IMG/VR virus record: IMGVR_UViG_3300033388_004471
Location: 1-43,989 of that record
Length of the DNA stretch: 43,989 nt
Origin: a virus
Direction: 5' to 3' (one strand)
The position numbers and the translations under genes were made by a program. Below are positions 587 through 43,989 of the stretch, in pieces. Under the pieces are notes generated by a model, which had not been told where the DNA came from, made no database searches, and worked only from the letters and a program-made list of their open reading frames with translations. Each line of letters begins with the position of its first letter. The stretch's first letter is position 1.

Positions 587-670
587 TTTATCCGTCCTTT
601 TGTTAGTTGCTTGGTAGCGTTATTGCTATCAAGTGATGTCATTATATAGTAATCAATAGGTGAGTGTAAA
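587..670 (-). promoter_or_regulatory. Early leftward promoter plus leader hairpin, copy 2
   Basis: On the minus strand there is TTTACA (665-670), an 18-base spacer and TATAAT (641-646), then the stem-loop 610-633 and AAGGA before the ATG at 586. The -10 region, start region and hairpin are almost identical to copy 1 (277-359), while the spacer differs, as expected if promoter and RNA elements are selected separately. Confidence 0.75.
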
Positions 671-706
671 GTATTTAATATTTATTTTATACAGTGGTGT
701 ATAAGC

Positions 707-25439: not shown

Positions 25440-25859
25440 TTACTCATTAAATCTTTTTCCACTTATTGTAAAGTATTTACTCATTAAATCCTTTTCACTT
25501 AGTCTAAACTGAAAAGCATATCGTTTTAAATCCTGTTCTTGTGAACGTTGCATGCCTCTAGTCCATTTGTTGTGCAAGTACATTCTATTATCTGAAGTGA
25601 GACTGTATACAGCAATCCCATCGATTGCTGTCCTGCTATCGTCTGTAGTGGCTTTTAAATAAAAATCCCATAGACGTTTAAAGTCATCTAAACTCATCCC
25701 TCGTTGAGTATCTATAAAACCTGCATACAAGGAATTGCTAGGTGTAATTACAGCAACTATGTCATCCCAGTATTCTATAGTTGCTCCTTGCCCAATAAAT
25801 GATCCTTGATAATCAAGTAAATTCGCACTCTTAATAAATTTTATTATTTCTTTGTTCAT
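25440..25859 (-). CDS. Unknown replication-operon protein (139 aa)
   Basis: The best start is ATG at 25859 (MNKEIIKFIKSANLLDYQGS); longer upstream frames would translate the terminator hairpin. The 139-residue protein is basic, with DYQGSFIGQGATIEYWDDIV near residue 15, and no recognised motif. It lies between the ssDNA-binding protein and the DNA polymerase gene. The hairpin and U-run end only 4 bases before its ATG, leaving no room for a normal ribosome site (AGG directly before), so its translation may be controlled. Confidence 0.65.
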   Translation of the reverse strand: MNKEIIKFIKSANLLDYQGSFIGQGATIEYWDDIVAVITPSNSLYAGFIDTQRGMSLDDFKRLWDFYLKATTDDSRTAIDGIAVYSLTSDNRMYLHNKWTRGMQRSQEQDLKRYAFQFRLSEKDLMSKYFTISGKRFNE

Positions 25860-25863
25860 ACCT

Positions 25864-25884
25864 AAAAACCCCCAATTAAGGGGG
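25864..25884 (-). terminator. Stem-loop terminator with U5, between ssb-like gene and next gene
   Basis: On the minus strand CCCCC-TTAATT-GGGGG-TTTTT forms a compact intrinsic-type terminator (arms 25869-25873 and 25880-25884). It lies downstream of the ssDNA-binding gene and 4 bases before the next start codon. The same hairpin recurs at 42227-42246 and 43045-43065, in each case after a leftward gene. Confidence 0.75.
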
Positions 25885-25908
25885 CTAGTTGTGAAATTGA
25901 TAAGAACT

Positions 25909-28604: not shown

Positions 28605-28817
28605 TTAGTTCTCCTTTGTGTTTTTAAATAGACGACCTAGTGGGTCGTCCTCTCTTGTAGGTGGTGTTATTGCACACCTATCTTGATAAAATGCAATAAG
28701 GATTTGTCGAATACCCTCACTGTGTTTTATGTTTAGATTGTCCAACTTTTCGTACAATTTTTCTTTGCCTCCGTCAGGTAAAATAATGTTTAAATTGTTG
28801 TTGTAATTTCGTGTCAT
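28605..28817 (-). CDS. Probable ribbon-helix-helix DNA-binding regulator (70 aa)
   Basis: This 70-residue protein has a short N-terminal strand-like segment (NNLNIILPDGGKEKLYEKL) followed by a helix, a turn and a second helix (SEGIRQILIAFYQD), the layout of an Arc/MetJ-type repressor dimer. It is the first gene of the leftward replication operon and lies directly beside the 44-bp operator repeats. The simplest model is autorepression, and possibly repression of the divergent PAPS-reductase/primase operon. The fold call is moderate. Confidence 0.6.
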   Translation of the reverse strand: MTRNYNNNLNIILPDGGKEKLYEKLDNLNIKHSEGIRQILIAFYQDRCAITPPTREDDPLGRLFKNTKEN

Positions 28818-28833
28818 GATAACTCCTTTCTGG

Positions 28834-28965
28834 TTAATTTGAACATAGTATACACTATAAGAGATAAATATATATGCTTAATTTGAACATAATATACACT
28901 ATAAGAGATAAATATATATGCTTAATTTGAACATAATATACACTATAAGAGATAAATATATATGC
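28834..28965. repeat. Three tandem 44-bp operator-like repeats
   Basis: Three head-to-tail copies of one 44-bp unit occupy 28834-28877, 28878-28921 and 28922-28965. Each carries ATTTGAACATARTATACACTAT, with the short dyad ATAGT-ATAC-ACTAT in copy 1, then GAGATAAATATATATGC. Copies 2 and 3 have one substitution relative to copy 1. They lie between the divergent leftward (28817) and rightward (29037) operons, so they are candidates for repeated operators or an origin. Confidence 0.9.
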
Positions 28966-29003
28966 TTAATTTGAACATAGTGTATACTATGTTCAAATTA
29001 AGC
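28964..29003. promoter_or_regulatory. 40-bp palindromic operator at the end of the repeat array
   Basis: Eighteen-base arms GCTTAATTTGAACATAGT and their perfect complement flank a 4-base centre (28982-28985). The left arm is the start of a fourth copy of the 44-bp repeat, so the palindrome arises where a repeat meets its inverted self. A dimeric repressor such as the 28605 product would bind here; the palindrome overlaps the region just upstream of the PAPS-reductase gene and would control it. Confidence 0.75.
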
Positions 29004-29036
29004 AGAAAGAATAAAACAGAAAGGATAAATAAAATT

Positions 29037-29807
29037 ATGCAAATAATCGTACCAGTGTCAGGTGGTAAAGACAGTCAAGCCTGCTTAAAGTTGGCAGTAG
29101 ACAAGTATGGTGCAGAAAATGTACAAGGTATGTTTTGTGATACATATAATGAACATCCTATGACTTATTCTCACATTGCACTTATGGAAATACTTTATGG
29201 GGTAGAAATTATTACAGTAATTGATCATAAGTTCCCGGGGCGAAATGTTTGGGAAAGAATAAGAAACAGAGGACAATTTCCCAGAGATAATACTAGATTT
29301 TGCACTCAACAATTAAAAATACAAGCAGCGTGCAGATACTATAAAGAACTGTTAACTACTGACCGTTATAAAGATGGTTATCAAGTGTGGTATGGAATGA
29401 GAGGTACTGACGAGAGTACACAACGAACGAATAAATATAGTAAATATATACCAATGGATATTGATGATCAACGAGAATTAATTGATGCCAATGATATGAA
29501 CTCAACATTTCCCAAAAAATTAGCAAAACAAAATGTGTGGTTCGTACTTCCAGTAGTTGAGTGGACAACTCAAGATATTTTTCATTTTCTCGGAGATGAT
29601 ATTAATCCGCTCTACAACCATGGTTTCAAAAGAGTAGGTTGTTTTCCCTGTTTCGCCTGTGCCACACCAAAACAGTTGATAAAAGCATACTCTTTTGATG
29701 AATTTGGGGCTTCTCAGTTGAGAAAGGTTAAAGCAATGGAAATAGAATTAGGAGTTAAACATAAAAATTCAAATACTGAACAAGCTTGCTCATGGTGTGA
29801 TATTTAA
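29037..29807 (+). CDS. PAPS-reductase family ATP pyrophosphatase
   Basis: ATG at 29037 is preceded by AGAAAGGA and starts the conserved domain (MQIIVPVSGGKDSQACLKLA). The P-loop SGGKDS of adenylating ATP pyrophosphatases (residues 8-13) is intact. An FCTQQLKI motif near 87 and Cys-rich C-terminus (GCFPCFACATP near 205, then CSWC at the end) match phage-type PAPS reductase-like proteins, which also include DndC-like members. It is 256 residues. The role in phages is open: sulfur or nucleobase modification, or DNA thiolation-type reactions. In-frame ATG codons at 28962 and 28989 fall in the operator array and are unlikely starts. Confidence 0.85.
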   Translation: MQIIVPVSGGKDSQACLKLAVDKYGAENVQGMFCDTYNEHPMTYSHIALMEILYGVEIITVIDHKFPGRNVWERIRNRGQFPRDNTRFCTQQLKIQAACRYYKELLTTDRYKDGYQVWYGMRGTDESTQRTNKYSKYIPMDIDDQRELIDANDMNSTFPKKLAKQNVWFVLPVVEWTTQDIFHFLGDDINPLYNHGFKRVGCFPCFACATPKQLIKAYSFDEFGASQLRKVKAMEIELGVKHKNSNTEQACSWCDI

Positions 29808-36641: not shown

Positions 36642-36691
36642 AGTTTATAATAATCACTAACAAATTAGTTTATAATAGTCACTAACAAATT
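36642..36691 (+). repeat. Two 25-bp direct repeats carrying TATAAT
   Basis: AGTTTATAATARTCACTAAC plus ACAAATT-type ends repeat head to tail at 36642-36666 and 36667-36691 with one difference. Each has a TATAAT that could act as a -10 box, and the second copy contains the 5' acceptor strand of the following tRNA-like element. A related TATAATAATCACCAAC occurs at 37219-37234 before the next tRNA, suggesting a common promoter or processing element. Confidence 0.8.
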
Positions 36692-36765
36692 AGAGAAGTC
36701 GGGTATCTCGTTTAAGCTTACCATAGGAAGGTTAAAAGACGTGGGTTCGAATCCCACATTTGTTA
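36684..36765 (+). ncRNA. tRNA-like element with a 16-nt anticodon loop
   Basis: Acceptor AACAAAT/ATTTGTT, D stem GAGA/TCTC with loop AGTCGGGTA, and T arm GTGGG-TTCGAAT-CCCAC are perfect. The anticodon stem TTTAA/TTAAA is intact but closes a 16-base loop (36716-36731, containing GCTTACCATAGG) in place of 7. Inside, CTT/AAG and CC/GG can pair, prolonging the arm. There is no encoded CCA and no loop in which a normal anticodon follows a U33. It may be a degenerate tRNA, a processing or packaging signal, or a tRNA mimic. A class II reading (anticodon TTA) needs a mismatch and is poorer. Confidence 0.75.
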
Positions 36766-36888
36766 CTAATTCTAAGATTATAATTCGCTGATGAGCTAAG
36801 CAATACTCACTATTATAATCTTTAAATAGTATGGGTGAAGGCTGTAGAATAACAACACCCACTTTTAATAACTAAATAGGAGTAAGAG
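36766..36888 (+). other. Intergenic region with two inverted repeats
   Basis: The 123 bases after the tRNA-like element hold no gene. An 11-bp perfect inverted repeat, AAGATTATAAT (36774-36784) and its partner 36812-36822, encloses 27 bases, and a weaker stem TGGGTG/CACCCA spans 36832-36861. The ribosome site of the next gene (AGGAG) follows. They could be a processing stem and a leader hairpin. Confidence 0.5.
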
Positions 36889-40628: not shown

Positions 40629-41063
40629 TTAATACCCGTCAACATTAGCCCCTGTAAAATCCGTATTTGATAAATTTGCTCCCAAAAAACATGCATCTAC
40701 TGCATATGTATTTTTACAAATACCATCTCTCAAGTCAACATTTTCAAACTTAGCACCTGATAAATCGGCACCTACTAGATTGGCACCTGCTAGATTGGCA
40801 CCTGTTAGATCGGCATAATGCAAGTTAGCACCTGATAAATCGGCACCTGCTAGATTAGCACCTGCTAGATTAACACCTGCTAGATTAGCACCTACTAGAT
40901 CGGCATCAATAAGGCTTTTGCGTTCCACAGCCATAATAATAGCACTACGTTGATCATTGCTATTGGTGAGTCTATTGCAAGTAATATTCCCTTCAAAATC
41001 GGTAACCGTTTTAAAGATTACCTCATTTGTAAACTTGTTTTTAATTTCAAATATCTTTTTCAT
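40629..41063 (-). CDS. Pentapeptide-repeat protein 1
   Basis: The first 50 residues are a small N-terminal domain, followed by about 15 pentapeptide repeats A(D/N)LXX ([16 protein letters not shown] near residues 65-80) that form a right-handed beta helix. Such proteins can mimic DNA and inhibit gyrase, as in MfpA and Qnr, but other functions exist. It is a paralogue of the gene at 41124-41600, with N-terminal domains near identical and the leader and ribosome site (AGGAG) shared. The 3' end carries extra residues (FENVDLRDGICKNTYAVDAC) interrupting the repeats. Confidence 0.85.
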   Translation of the reverse strand: MKKIFEIKNKFTNEVIFKTVTDFEGNITCNRLTNSNDQRSAIIMAVERKSLIDADLVGANLAGVNLAGANLAGADLSGANLHYADLTGANLAGANLVGADLSGAKFENVDLRDGICKNTYAVDACFLGANLSNTDFTGANVDGY

Positions 41064-41123
41064 AATTAATACTCCTGTTTAATATTTAATATTTAATAGG
41101 TTCGCGTCCTCAAATACCACCCC

Positions 41124-41600
41124 TCAAGTTAACGTTGCACCTGATAAATCGGCACCTGATAGATCGGTATCTACTAGATTAGCACCTGATAAATTGACAT
41201 AATGCAAATTAGTACCTGATAAATCGACACCTGAGAAATTAGCACCTGATAAATCGGCACCTGATAAATCGGCACCTGCTAGATTAGCACCTGATAGATT
41301 GGCACCTGATAAATCGGCATAACGCAAATTAACACCTGTTAGATCGGCACCTGATAAATCGGCACCAAATAAATCGGCACCTGCTAGATTAGCACCTGGT
41401 AGATTAGCACCTGCTAGATTAGCACCTACTAGATCGGCATCAATAAGGCCTTTGTGTTCCATAATAGCCATAATAATAGCACTACGTTGATCATTGCTAT
41501 TGGTGTGTCTATTACAAGTAATATTTCCTTCAAAATCGGTAACCGTTTTAAAGATTACCACATCTGTAAACTTGTTTTTAATTTCAAATATCTTTTTCAT
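41124..41600 (-). CDS. Pentapeptide-repeat protein 2
   Basis: A 158-residue paralogue of 40629-41063. N-terminal residues 1-50 are almost identical and the pentapeptide part is longer and uninterrupted, with units such as ADLSGANL repeated about 20 times to the end. The gene is tandem to its paralogue with 60 bases between, and the non-coding upstream block (CAGGAGTATTAATT before ATG) is copied with it. The extension of repeats relative to its sister is consistent with slippage. It may bind gyrase or another DNA-binding enzyme of the host. Confidence 0.85.
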
Positions 41601-41659: not shown

Positions 41660-42178
41660 TTAATCGGTAAGAAGGTTGCAGATACGTATAAATTCCCCTC
41701 TATTCTCACTTAATGATAAATACTCGTTTACATCCATACTTGATAATATCCACTCATCAGGCAATCCTGCCAAATAAACAATATCATCTAGCATCATTTG
41801 CGTATCATTACCCGTGGACTCACTGATAAAACCAGTAATATCATCTATTTTATCGGTGCGTTCTACAAGATTATAATTCTCTTTTTCACAACACGTATCA
41901 ATTATTTTTACACCGTTTATAATAATATCCCTTTCTAGGTTATAGCCAATAACTGGCTCAACCAATAACTCATCATCACCGATAACATTGGGTAATAAAT
42001 CTTCATCCTCAATACCTTGAATAGAATGCTGAACCTTACCAAGTCTCTCAAGTAAGCATACACGTTGTGAATTTTCACAAGTGTCACCATCATTTTTCAA
42101 ATGGTCATTAATGCCTTCCCAAAGCATTACACTAATATCTAATAATTTATCTTGTACAATCGTTGCTTTATTATTCAT
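41660..42178 (-). CDS. Unknown early protein (172 aa)
   Basis: The best start is the ATG at 42178: AAGGA lies eight bases before it, as in neighbouring early genes, and the ATG at 42187 has no spacing from AAGG. The 172-residue acidic protein has no recognised motif. It has a leucine-rich N-terminal half (LLDISVMLWEGINDHL) and an acidic C-terminus. It follows the leader hairpin at 42190-42230. Confidence 0.65.
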   Translation of the reverse strand: MNNKATIVQDKLLDISVMLWEGINDHLKNDGDTCENSQRVCLLERLGKVQHSIQGIEDEDLLPNVIGDDELLVEPVIGYNLERDIIINGVKIIDTCCEKENYNLVERTDKIDDITGFISESTGNDTQMMLDDIVYLAGLPDEWILSSMDVNEYLSLSENRGEFIRICNLLTD

Positions 42179-42189
42179 CTTGTCCATCC

Positions 42190-42230
42190 TTTTGTTGACA
42201 CCAGATCATCATTAACCTGATACCTCAAAA
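42190..42230 (-). promoter_or_regulatory. Leader stem-loop 2 (paired with terminator) before gene 41660
   Basis: Read on the minus strand, the 18-base arm TTTTGAGGTATCAGGTTA and TGATCTGGTGTCAACAAAA fold around ATGA into a long RNA hairpin that needs several G-U pairs and has one small bulge. The U-run of the adjacent terminator (42227-42230) is its 5' arm. The AAAAGGA ribosome site ends its 3' arm. See the homologous leader at 43010-43049. Confidence 0.7.
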
Positions 42231-42560
42231 CCCCCAATTAAGGGGGTTAAGTTGGTGAATAAATAGTTTTAGAGTGGACGTTCTTAATCTTTCCAATCTA
42301 GTAGTAACATTATAAGTACGCCCCCCCAATTCCAAAGATAAATCAGAAATCGCATTAACTATTTTTTTCATTAAAGAATAGTTAACTACAGGCATAAGAC
42401 CATAATTATTCTTTATATGCATATGTATTCTGAAATCAATTTTTATACCAACCTTTTTACTTAACTGATTTTTAAAACTTTCTAATGTAATTTTCTCACT
42501 ATTTGGCTGTATTGTTTCAATAGTAAAATCAATTTTTCTTTTTGTCTCTATTCTTAACAT
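42225..42560 (-). CDS. Unknown early protein (111 aa)
   Basis: A 111-residue basic soluble protein, MLRIETKRKIDFTIETIQPN at the start, with no recognised motif. Its last residues (NPLNWGF) and its stop codon are encoded by the terminator hairpin, so the gene runs into its own terminator. ATG is preceded by the coupled stop of the 41-residue peptide gene. Confidence 0.65.
   Translation of the reverse strand: MLRIETKRKIDFTIETIQPNSEKITLESFKNQLSKKVGIKIDFRIHMHIKNNYGLMPVVNYSLMKKIVNAISDLSLELGGRTYNVTTRLERLRTSTLKLFIHQLNPLNWGF
42227..42246 (-). terminator. Stem-loop terminator 2 (minus strand)
   Basis: AACCCCC-TTAATT-GGGGGTT with a U4 tail on the minus strand, the same sequence as 25864-25884 and 43045-43065. 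It overlaps the last codons of gene 42225-42560 and the 5' arm of the next leader hairpin. Confidence 0.75.
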
Positions 42561-42564
42561 AATT

Positions 42565-42690
42565 TTATCCCCTTTGTCTTGTTAATTTAAAATGGCGCAT
42601 TATCCTTATTGATTGCTGCCTTTTCTTTTTTTGTTGACTGCGAGTCAATGGTTTAATCATCCCAAACTTATTAAACTTACGATGTGTCAT
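42565..42690 (-). CDS. Small, very basic peptide (41 aa)
   Basis: ATG at 42688-42690 lies within the stop of the upstream gene (GCATGA), with AAGGA nine bases before. The 41-residue product (MTHRKFNKFGMIKPLTRSQQ then KKKRQQSIRIMRHFKLTRQ and two more) has about 16 Lys/Arg, so it would bind RNA or DNA or acidic proteins. Its stop is 5 bases before the next ATG. It is too short to recognise. Confidence 0.55.
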   Translation of the reverse strand: MTHRKFNKFGMIKPLTRSQQKKKRQQSIRIMRHFKLTRQRG

Positions 42691-42998
42691 GCGTATAATT
42701 CCTTCATTTTATTCTTATTGTTTTCAAAAATTAACAAAGCGTCTCTCAATTTTTTGTAGATTTTTATAAACTTTTTAAATTCCGTTTTATCACTTATAAT
42801 AGTATTAGCGTTGCTAGTCAAACCTCCGTTTTTTTCGATACGTATCGAACTTTCAAAACCTTTAACACCGAATACTTTTATATTCATATCCCACTGTTTG
42901 AGTTGCCCATCCTCTATCATATTCAAAAAAACTTTGGGTAAATTTTCCAGATTCCATTTATCTTTGTTAATTAACCATGACTGCTGTAACTTGTCCAT
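42687..42998 (-). CDS. Unknown early protein (103 aa)
   Basis: The ATG at 42998 fits AAGGA at eight bases; the earlier ATG at 43007 has none. The 103-residue basic protein (MDKLQQSWLINKDKWNLE) has no recognised motif. Its C-terminal 40 residues look like a helix rich in Lys and Leu (KKFIKIYKKLRDALLIFEN). It is coupled to the 41-residue peptide below, and its leader carries the 43010-43049 hairpin. Confidence 0.65.
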   Translation of the reverse strand: MDKLQQSWLINKDKWNLENLPKVFLNMIEDGQLKQWDMNIKVFGVKGFESSIRIEKNGGLTSNANTIISDKTEFKKFIKIYKKLRDALLIFENNKNKMKELYA

Positions 42999-43009
42999 CT
43001 TGTCCATCC

Positions 43010-43049
43010 TTTTTAGGTATCAAATCATCATTGATCTGATACCTAAAAA
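43010..43049 (-). promoter_or_regulatory. Leader stem-loop 1 before gene 42687
   Basis: Minus-strand 18-base arms TTTTTAGGTATCAGATCA and TGATTTGATACCTAAAAA surround ATGA and pair completely if one G-U is allowed. The first U-run is shared with the terminator at 43045-43065, so hairpin and terminator overlap. The AAAAAGG of its 3' end contains the ribosome site for the ATG at 42998. This may be an attenuator or translation control element. Confidence 0.75.
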
Positions 43050-43065
43050 CCCCCAATTAAGGGGG
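43045..43065 (-). terminator. Stem-loop terminator 3 (minus strand)
   Basis: CCCCC-TTAATT-GGGGG-TTTTT on the minus strand, after the secreted-protein gene (43086-43535). Its U-run forms the first arm of the next hairpin (43010-43049). Confidence 0.8.
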
Positions 43066-43085
43066 TTAAGTTGGTAGTGGGTTCT

Positions 43086-43535
43086 TTATTCAGTATAAAG
43101 ACGTTCTTTACTTACTACCTTTCTGACCAACGCCTCAAGTACATTGGCTTGTTTGGCAGCCGTGTCAACTGCTTGATTAGCCTTGAAGGATTTATACATT
43201 TCATCAGCTTGCGAGTTGCGTAATGTGATCATGGCATTTGCCGCCTGTTTGGCATCGCGTTCGTCCATTAAACGATTAATCATCGCTGTTTGTGCCACCA
43301 AGTCTTGAGCGGCTTGGTCACGCGCAATCATTTTTTTCAACAAATTATTATTCTCGTTGTTCGTTCTAAGATTTTGCTGATAAACCTGCTCTTTTTGATA
43401 ATCAGCCATGTACGAATTGAAGTCTTTATTATCCGAACCAATATCATACCAAGCGGCTGTACTTGAAGTTGATGCCATCATAACACTTGTAGTTGCAATT
43501 AATAGTGCTGTCATTGTTTTGTTAAGTTTTTTCAT
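43086..43535 (-). CDS. Sec-secreted periplasmic protein, unknown (149 aa)
   Basis: MKKLNKTMTALLIATTSVMM ASTSSTAA-WYD gives a standard signal peptide with probable cleavage after Ala28. The mature part (residues 29-149) is helical, Gln/Ala/Asn-rich and basic at the end (VRKVVSKERLYTE), with the heptad-like segment AQDLVAQTAMINRLMDERDAKQ. A phage protein exported early from an early promoter region is unusual; superinfection exclusion or an envelope-stress role is possible. The hairpin CCAGT/ACTGG and AAGGA precede the start. Confidence 0.75.
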   Translation of the reverse strand: MKKLNKTMTALLIATTSVMMASTSSTAAWYDIGSDNKDFNSYMADYQKEQVYQQNLRTNNENNNLLKKMIARDQAAQDLVAQTAMINRLMDERDAKQAANAMITLRNSQADEMYKSFKANQAVDTAAKQANVLEALVRKVVSKERLYTE

Positions 43536-43607
43536 TTTATTTCTATCCTTGTTAAAGCCAGTATCCGACTGGTTCGGTTGAGTTTTATTTAACTCTTGAC
43601 ATTATTA

Positions 43608-43672
43608 AATAATATCTCAATGCACCAACCTTAATAATTGATGCATTAGGTTATTATTTAGTATTTATAGCA
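43608..43672 (-). repeat. Conserved intergenic stem-loop repeat, copy 2
   Basis: A second copy of 366-421; the arms AATGCA/TGCATT and CAA/TTG still pair despite changes in the loop. It covers the stop codon of the cysteine gene at 43654-43833 and lies upstream of the secreted-protein gene. Confidence 0.6.
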
Positions 43673-43833
43673 AATAGCTTACAAGTTTTATAAATGGCTA
43701 CACCATTCGCTATTTCAGCAGCACAATAATAATAACCATATGCTTCAGGGTTAGTTTTAGCATGCTTGCAGTTATAACAACTTTTATTACGATCGTTTGT
43801 TCTGAATTGAAGGTTTTTAGTTTGTTTTTTCAT
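43654..43833 (-). CDS. Small four-cysteine protein (59 aa)
   Basis: ATG at 43833 follows AAGGA by eight bases. The 59-residue basic product has a CYNC pair at residues 19-22 and further cysteines near 37 and 51, which could form a zinc site. It is in the leftward early cluster with the conserved stem-loop repeat at its 3' end. Function is unknown. Confidence 0.65.
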   Translation of the reverse strand: MKKQTKNLQFRTNDRNKSCYNCKHAKTNPEAYGYYYCAAEIANGVAIYKTCKLFAINTK

Positions 43834-43875
43834 TATGTTCGTCCTTTTGTTGCATTAGGTTATTATTTAGTATTT

Positions 43876-43989
43876 ATAGCCTTGTGTATTACGCTTCAAC
43901 AATATTAGTTATGTTAACTACCAAATGTTAACTTCAAGACCGCCAGTGCTTGGTACCGCTTGCCAACCCAATGCTCTACATGCATTACC
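43876..43989. repeat. Terminal redundancy, right copy
   Basis: Identical to 1-114. It carries the 3' end of the 43-276 gene in a second copy (stop codon at 43918-43920). Immediately before it, GCATTAGGTTATTATTTAGT at 43852-43871 is a third copy of part of the conserved intergenic repeat. Confidence 0.95.

Follow-up and report, generated by a model that had tools for sequence, protein, structure and literature searches.

A duplicated gene-junction block joining a terminator to a ribosome-site hairpin in a podovirus-like genome

The question raised by this locus is what a structured block of approximately 80 nucleotides does, given that it is carried twice on the minus strand and ends both times in the start codon of a gene. 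The window, meaning the whole stretch of DNA that was analysed, is a virus record of 43,989 bp with a GC content of 36.8%. An identical 114-nucleotide direct repeat is found at its two ends (1-114 and 43876-43989), so the genome is probably complete and either circular or terminally redundant. Its gene set is podovirus-like and includes TerL, a head-tail adaptor, a major head protein, a DNA polymerase, and a primase/helicase. Within the collections covered, TerL led to no close relative; the nearest named phage shares 43% of it, and the TerL alignment contains 80 loci with identities of 39-49%. Patterns made from single proteins had no match among the viral contigs. Both copies of the block lie in a run of small minus-strand genes that extends from approximately position 690 across the genome join, and this run is taken here as the early region.

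The block is located at 43075-42996 (copy 1) and 42256-42176 (copy 2). Each copy is composed of a C5/G5 terminator, a second hairpin (hairpin 2) that begins in the terminator U-run, and the sequence AAAAGGATGGACAAGATG. Both copies open with ACCAACTTAACCCCCTTAATTGGGGGTTTT (at 43075 and 42256, minus strand) and are alike as far as AAAAGGATGGACAAGATG, the last ATG of which is the start codon (42998-42996 in copy 1, 42178-42176 in copy 2). The features of the two copies, their flanking genes, and a third copy of the terminator are as follows.

43086-43535, minus strand: gene upstream of copy 1; its stop codon is 5' of the terminator and outside it
43050-43065, minus strand: copy 1 terminator stem CCCCCTTAATTGGGGG (CCCCC/GGGGG), followed by TTTTT at 43049-43045
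43010-43049, minus strand: copy 1 second hairpin, 18 bp with a 4-nucleotide loop, its U5/A5 base adjoining GGA
42996-43013, minus strand: copy 1 ribosome-site block AAAAGGATGGACAAGATG
42687-42998, minus strand: gene downstream of copy 1, no family match
42225-42560, minus strand: ORF upstream of copy 2; its last codons cross the terminator
42231-42246, minus strand: copy 2 terminator stem CCCCCTTAATTGGGGG (CCCCC/GGGGG), followed by TTTTG
42190-42230, minus strand: copy 2 second hairpin, 5 bp, an internal loop, and 11 bp, with five G-U pairs
42176-42193, minus strand: copy 2 ribosome-site block AAAAGGATGGACAAGATG
41660-42178, minus strand: gene downstream of copy 2, unrelated to the gene downstream of copy 1
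25859-25888, minus strand: third terminator copy and TTTTTAGGT, leading directly into the ATG at 25859, with no second hairpin

A sequence-only reading of this DNA had described one tandem structure before genes 42687-42998 and 41660-42178, with a C5/G5 terminator whose U-run doubles as the 5' arm of a second hairpin that reaches the ribosome site. Both copies bear this description out: hairpin 2 starts at the first U of the U-run in each, and in each it lies flush with the GGA of the ribosome site. The length of 18 bp given for hairpin 2 fits copy 1, but not copy 2, where 5 and 11 bp flank a defect.

The identity between the copies begins ten bases 5' of the terminator and continues to the start codon, with nine substitutions and one gap in between (the exact count varies with the placement of the gap). 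Immediately outside these limits the sequences diverge, and by sequence comparison the genes on either side of copies 1 and 2 are not homologous. It is therefore the junction block that is duplicated, and not a gene. A search for homologues of the proteins adjacent to the block found none. The two copies differ in how the preceding gene ends. The ORF upstream of copy 2 terminates in …QLNPLNWGF, with its TGA (42227-42225) inside the U-run and the 5' arm of hairpin 2, while the upstream stop codon of copy 1 is located approximately 38 nucleotides before hairpin 2. A G7 tract is present within ORF 42560-42225 (42322-42328) and is a possible slippage or hypervariable site.

The junction sequence of the third copy is GGGGGTTTTTAGGTATG, with the ATG at 25859. 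The terminator thus occurs three times in the genome, compared with no occurrence in 100 shuffles, and all three copies directly precede a start codon. An automatic scan for the tandem arrangement, defined as a terminator with a U-run in which a second hairpin begins, returned exactly two matches in the genome, copies 1 and 2. Across 40 shuffled windows the same scan turned up a single loose case, and in approximately 0.95 Mb of distantly related phage DNA it returned weak structures only, none with a ribosome site after it. The tandem feature is real and non-random.

In a 41-nucleotide fold, hairpin 2 of copy 1 has a predicted free energy of −21.3 kcal/mol (z −8.1). Hairpin 2 of copy 2, at −11.8 kcal/mol (z −2.9), is predicted to be weaker by ten kcal/mol. 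Folded whole, copy 1 (86 nucleotides) forms the terminator and the 18-bp hairpin at −35.6 kcal/mol (z −7.1), and copy 2 forms the terminator and a hairpin of 5 and 11 pairs at −25.3 kcal/mol (z −2.2). When the leaders of 57 gene starts were ranked by structural z-score, based on simple letter shuffles, copies 1, 3, and 2 were first, second, and fifth, respectively. In the predicted folds, hairpin 2 covers the A's of the Shine-Dalgarno sequence in both copies, and the ribosome site of copy 1 is roughly 20-70% open, with fraying of the lower hairpin pairs.

The differences between the two copies of hairpin 2 had been described as compensated, and pairing is in fact retained: 17 of the 18 pairs survive the nine substitutions when the inserted base of copy 2 is placed favourably. 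The compensation, however, is mostly tolerance of G-U wobble. Eight pairs are changed, six of them by one-sided exchanges between Watson-Crick and G-U, one by a two-sided change from T-A to G-C, and one by being broken; the two-sided change depends on gap placement, and there is at most one. Under random substitution models, the chance of such retention is between 0.00002 and 0.05 according to the assumed ancestor and mutation bias, in a test made post hoc on two copies from one genome. The energy of copy 2 is not significantly better than that of randomly mutated copy 1 (P 0.13). That selection may act on the RNA of hairpin 2 is weakly supported by these comparisons, with two copies and at most one true double change.

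A wobble change that gives G·U in one strand gives A·C in its complement. On the transcribed strand the six wobble columns are without exception G·U and never A·C, an outcome expected once in 64 cases if the strand were irrelevant. For copy 2, RNA from the opposite strand reaches a folding energy of −1.2 kcal/mol, compared with −11.8 kcal/mol on the transcribed strand. This strand asymmetry is a cleaner argument than the retention of pairs. With every wobble a G·U in the transcribed orientation and hardly any fold from the opposite strand of copy 2, it favours a role as RNA over a role as a DNA operator.

Homologues of the leader were searched for with three DNA patterns among the viral contigs, with no match. 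A covariance model was built from the two copies. Below E 0.1, its matches within the genome were limited to copies 1-3 and copy 1 read in antisense, and in 21 whole virus records it recovered nothing. In 0.96 Mb of DNA from relatives there were two weak matches (L006 and L031, E 0.14 and 0.29). These were judged to be chance; one is inside a coding sequence and the other is in G/C-rich low-complexity DNA. An Rfam search down to E 5 gave nothing relevant, with no model at gathering score and no known riboswitch.

The reading preferred here, held with moderate confidence, is that the duplicated junction block is a leaky terminator joined to a hairpin abutting the ribosome site, and that it has been spread by recombination. 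The block would probably tune the output of each downstream gene. The short intrinsic terminator, with its weak U-run (T5 or T4G), would end part of the upstream transcripts, and the downstream genes would be reached through readthrough. Readthrough seems to be needed because the U-runs are short, because no promoter can be made out in the stretch from the terminator to the start codon, and because the terminator of copy 3 runs directly into a start codon. A promoter was sought within the block, and no conserved site was found in either copy (the best agrees at 7 of 12 positions, and scanner matches are not common to the copies). At copy 3, the sequence leaves no room for a promoter between terminator and ATG, so readthrough must presumably be tolerated there. 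In the most economical form of this reading, the leaky terminator would set relative gene levels. Hairpin 2, with its A-rich 3' arm over the A's of the Shine-Dalgarno sequence, would lower ribosome loading until it is frayed or opened.

At copy 2 the preceding gene may also take part. A ribosome stopping at the upstream TGA would cover the G arm of the terminator and the 5' arm of hairpin 2 and could open both hairpins, and transcription and translation of the next gene would be tied to translation of the preceding one. In both copies, the downstream ribosome site abuts a putatively inhibitory structure. The upstream stop is inside the structure in copy 2 only, and coupling cannot be a general function of the block since copy 1 has no stop-codon overlap. 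The fullest form of this idea is a two-level ribosome-gated junction, in which one terminating ribosome at copy 2 disables the terminator and opens the hairpin at the next ribosome site. We regard it as unlikely. If true, a single event would control both transcription and translation, and the phage would be spreading such a block between early genes.

A possible alternative, to which we give a minor share of belief, is that the block is a recombination cassette only. It would be a repeated junction sequence for the swapping of early genes, with the terminator as an insulator and hairpin 2 without a regulatory role. The block boundaries coincide exactly with gene ends, as this would have it, and partial copies resemble recombination junctions: the terminator half is found at 25888-25859, and the 5' half of another repeated hairpin is found before a start codon at 43847-43880. 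The strand-specific retention of G-U pairing, however, is unexpected for an inert hairpin.

Repeated blocks are also present at other early junctions (288-369/599-680, 361-423/43603-43665, and 43638-43671/43847-43880), and half-blocks are reused before other start codons. The blocks at 288-369 and 599-680 (minus strand) are 88% identical and precede genes 276-43 and 586-416; they contain a promoter-like site, TTTACA-18 nt-TATAAT, a small hairpin in the leader, and the ribosome-site block AAAAGGACGGATAAAATG. A hairpin of approximately 20 bp is found at 361-423 and at 43603-43665, and the one at 361-423 is related to the repeats around gene 43654-43833. These repeats, at 43638-43671 and 43847-43880, are 97% identical, are direct, and are located on both sides of the gene, which suggests that gene 43654-43833 is a cassette inserted by recombination. 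The pattern looks like a shuffling of modules where junctions are repeated, of the kind reported for the promoter early stem-loops (PeSLs) of T4-like phages (cited in PMC4503421).

Repeats and structures of other kinds are found elsewhere in the window. Two pentapeptide-repeat genes (40629-41600) have a duplicated start region of 170 nucleotides that is 94% identical. The strongest local hairpin of the genome (38656-38700) is a near-perfect 14-bp inverted repeat inside a cytosine methyltransferase gene. The segment at 28831-29009, between divergent genes 28605-28817 (minus strand) and 28962-29807 (plus strand), contains 44-bp direct repeats and a 19-bp palindrome and is likely an operator or iteron array. 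A tRNA-like gene at 36684-36766 (plus strand) has normal acceptor, D, and T arms and a 16-nucleotide anticodon loop, which is possibly an extended arm with an ATA triloop. The ARAGORN call of a TTA ochre suppressor is doubtful because of the length of this loop.

Rather doubtful is the proposal that hairpin 2 is a processing or stability element, either cut by RNase III as at the early junctions of T7 or acting as a protective 5' hairpin. Long duplexes are indeed present at several early junctions (18 bp at 43049-43010; approximately 20 bp at 423-361 and at 43665-43603), and the T7 RNase III sites provide a precedent (PMC9135205). A processing site of this kind is a duplex of about two helical turns cut at defined positions; the 16-18 bp predicted here are short for RNase III.

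The sequence-only reading had placed the block among cis-acting RNA switches or attenuators, with the terminator and the leader hairpin as alternative folds of which only one can form fully. The U-run is common to both elements, which is the point in its favour, but the predicted folds contain both. The overlap amounts to only two A-U pairs at the foot of the terminator stem, and these are optional. The terminator has a probability of 1.0 in contexts of 151 to 361 nucleotides in both copies and coexists with hairpin 2 without a rival fold. Forbidding the terminator costs approximately 13 kcal/mol, and its arms gain no alternative pairing. Folding of the two copies yielded no antiterminator fold of comparable stability. 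The G7 tract near 42325 was considered as an antiterminator partner for the C's of the copy 2 terminator and was unused even with the terminator forbidden. In intrinsic termination, moreover, the terminator folds before hairpin 2 is transcribed, so later pairing of the U-run cannot disturb it. With no match to a riboswitch family either, a switch or attenuator is very improbable.

Still harder to sustain is a palindrome acting at the DNA level as an operator bound by a repressor of the phage or of its host. As DNA, copy 1 comes close to a perfect inverted repeat, with 17 of 18 pairs Watson-Crick. Copy 2, however, keeps 12 of 18 as Watson-Crick pairs but 17 of 18 as RNA, and no promoter is nearby. 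A processive antiterminator RNA like HK022 put, in which two adjacent hairpins act on RNA polymerase, is the least credible reading, for although put likewise has two adjacent stem-loops within approximately 70 nucleotides of early phage RNA (PMC9378689), stem I of the block is itself a C5/G5-U5 terminator, put is located downstream of early promoters while these blocks are between genes with no promoter seen, and no Rfam model reaches its gathering score.

The preferred reading, a leaky terminator with a ribosome-site hairpin, would bear on phage early regions more widely. Small genes without a known function abound in these regions, and outside T4 and T7 little is understood of the way they are acquired and expressed at set levels. 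A block that brings its own stop signal together with a structured leader and a ribosome site reaching the start codon would give an inserted gene ready-made expression. With terminators located directly before start codons, partial termination as a means of setting gene ratios is directly testable.

Known phage systems resemble the block in part. HK022 put, an RNA of two stems, acts through the zinc-binding domain of RNA polymerase to suppress termination further downstream. The block agrees with it in the two-stem outline alone, since one stem of the block is a terminator; unlike put, the block stands ahead of genes within a run of them and does not follow an early promoter. T7 has ten RNase III sites, six of which are in the same intergenic region as a promoter (PMC9135205). 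As in the T7 early region, the hairpins described here are found at early gene junctions near the next ribosome site, but the stems of the block are shorter and fused to a terminator, and cleavage is putative. In genes VII/IX of phage f1, a long hairpin just before the start prevents initiation as long as the upstream gene is not translated (PMC12548453). The hairpin of the block likewise ends just 5' of a start codon, and coupling would be conceivable at copy 2; unlike f1, it is preceded by a terminator, and the upstream stop is inside the structure only in copy 2. For the PeSLs of T4-like phages, a role in module shuffling is cited in PMC4503421. Like these elements, the terminator stem-loop is repeated at junctions of unrelated early genes (three copies) and apparently aids shuffling. 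Unlike them, the block has no promoter, and it continues through a second hairpin and a ribosome site as far as the start codon; because the promoter that defines a PeSL is absent, it is not classified as one. The block is a modest addition to the phage junction elements already known, and it brings with it one idea open to test, ribosome gating at copy 2.
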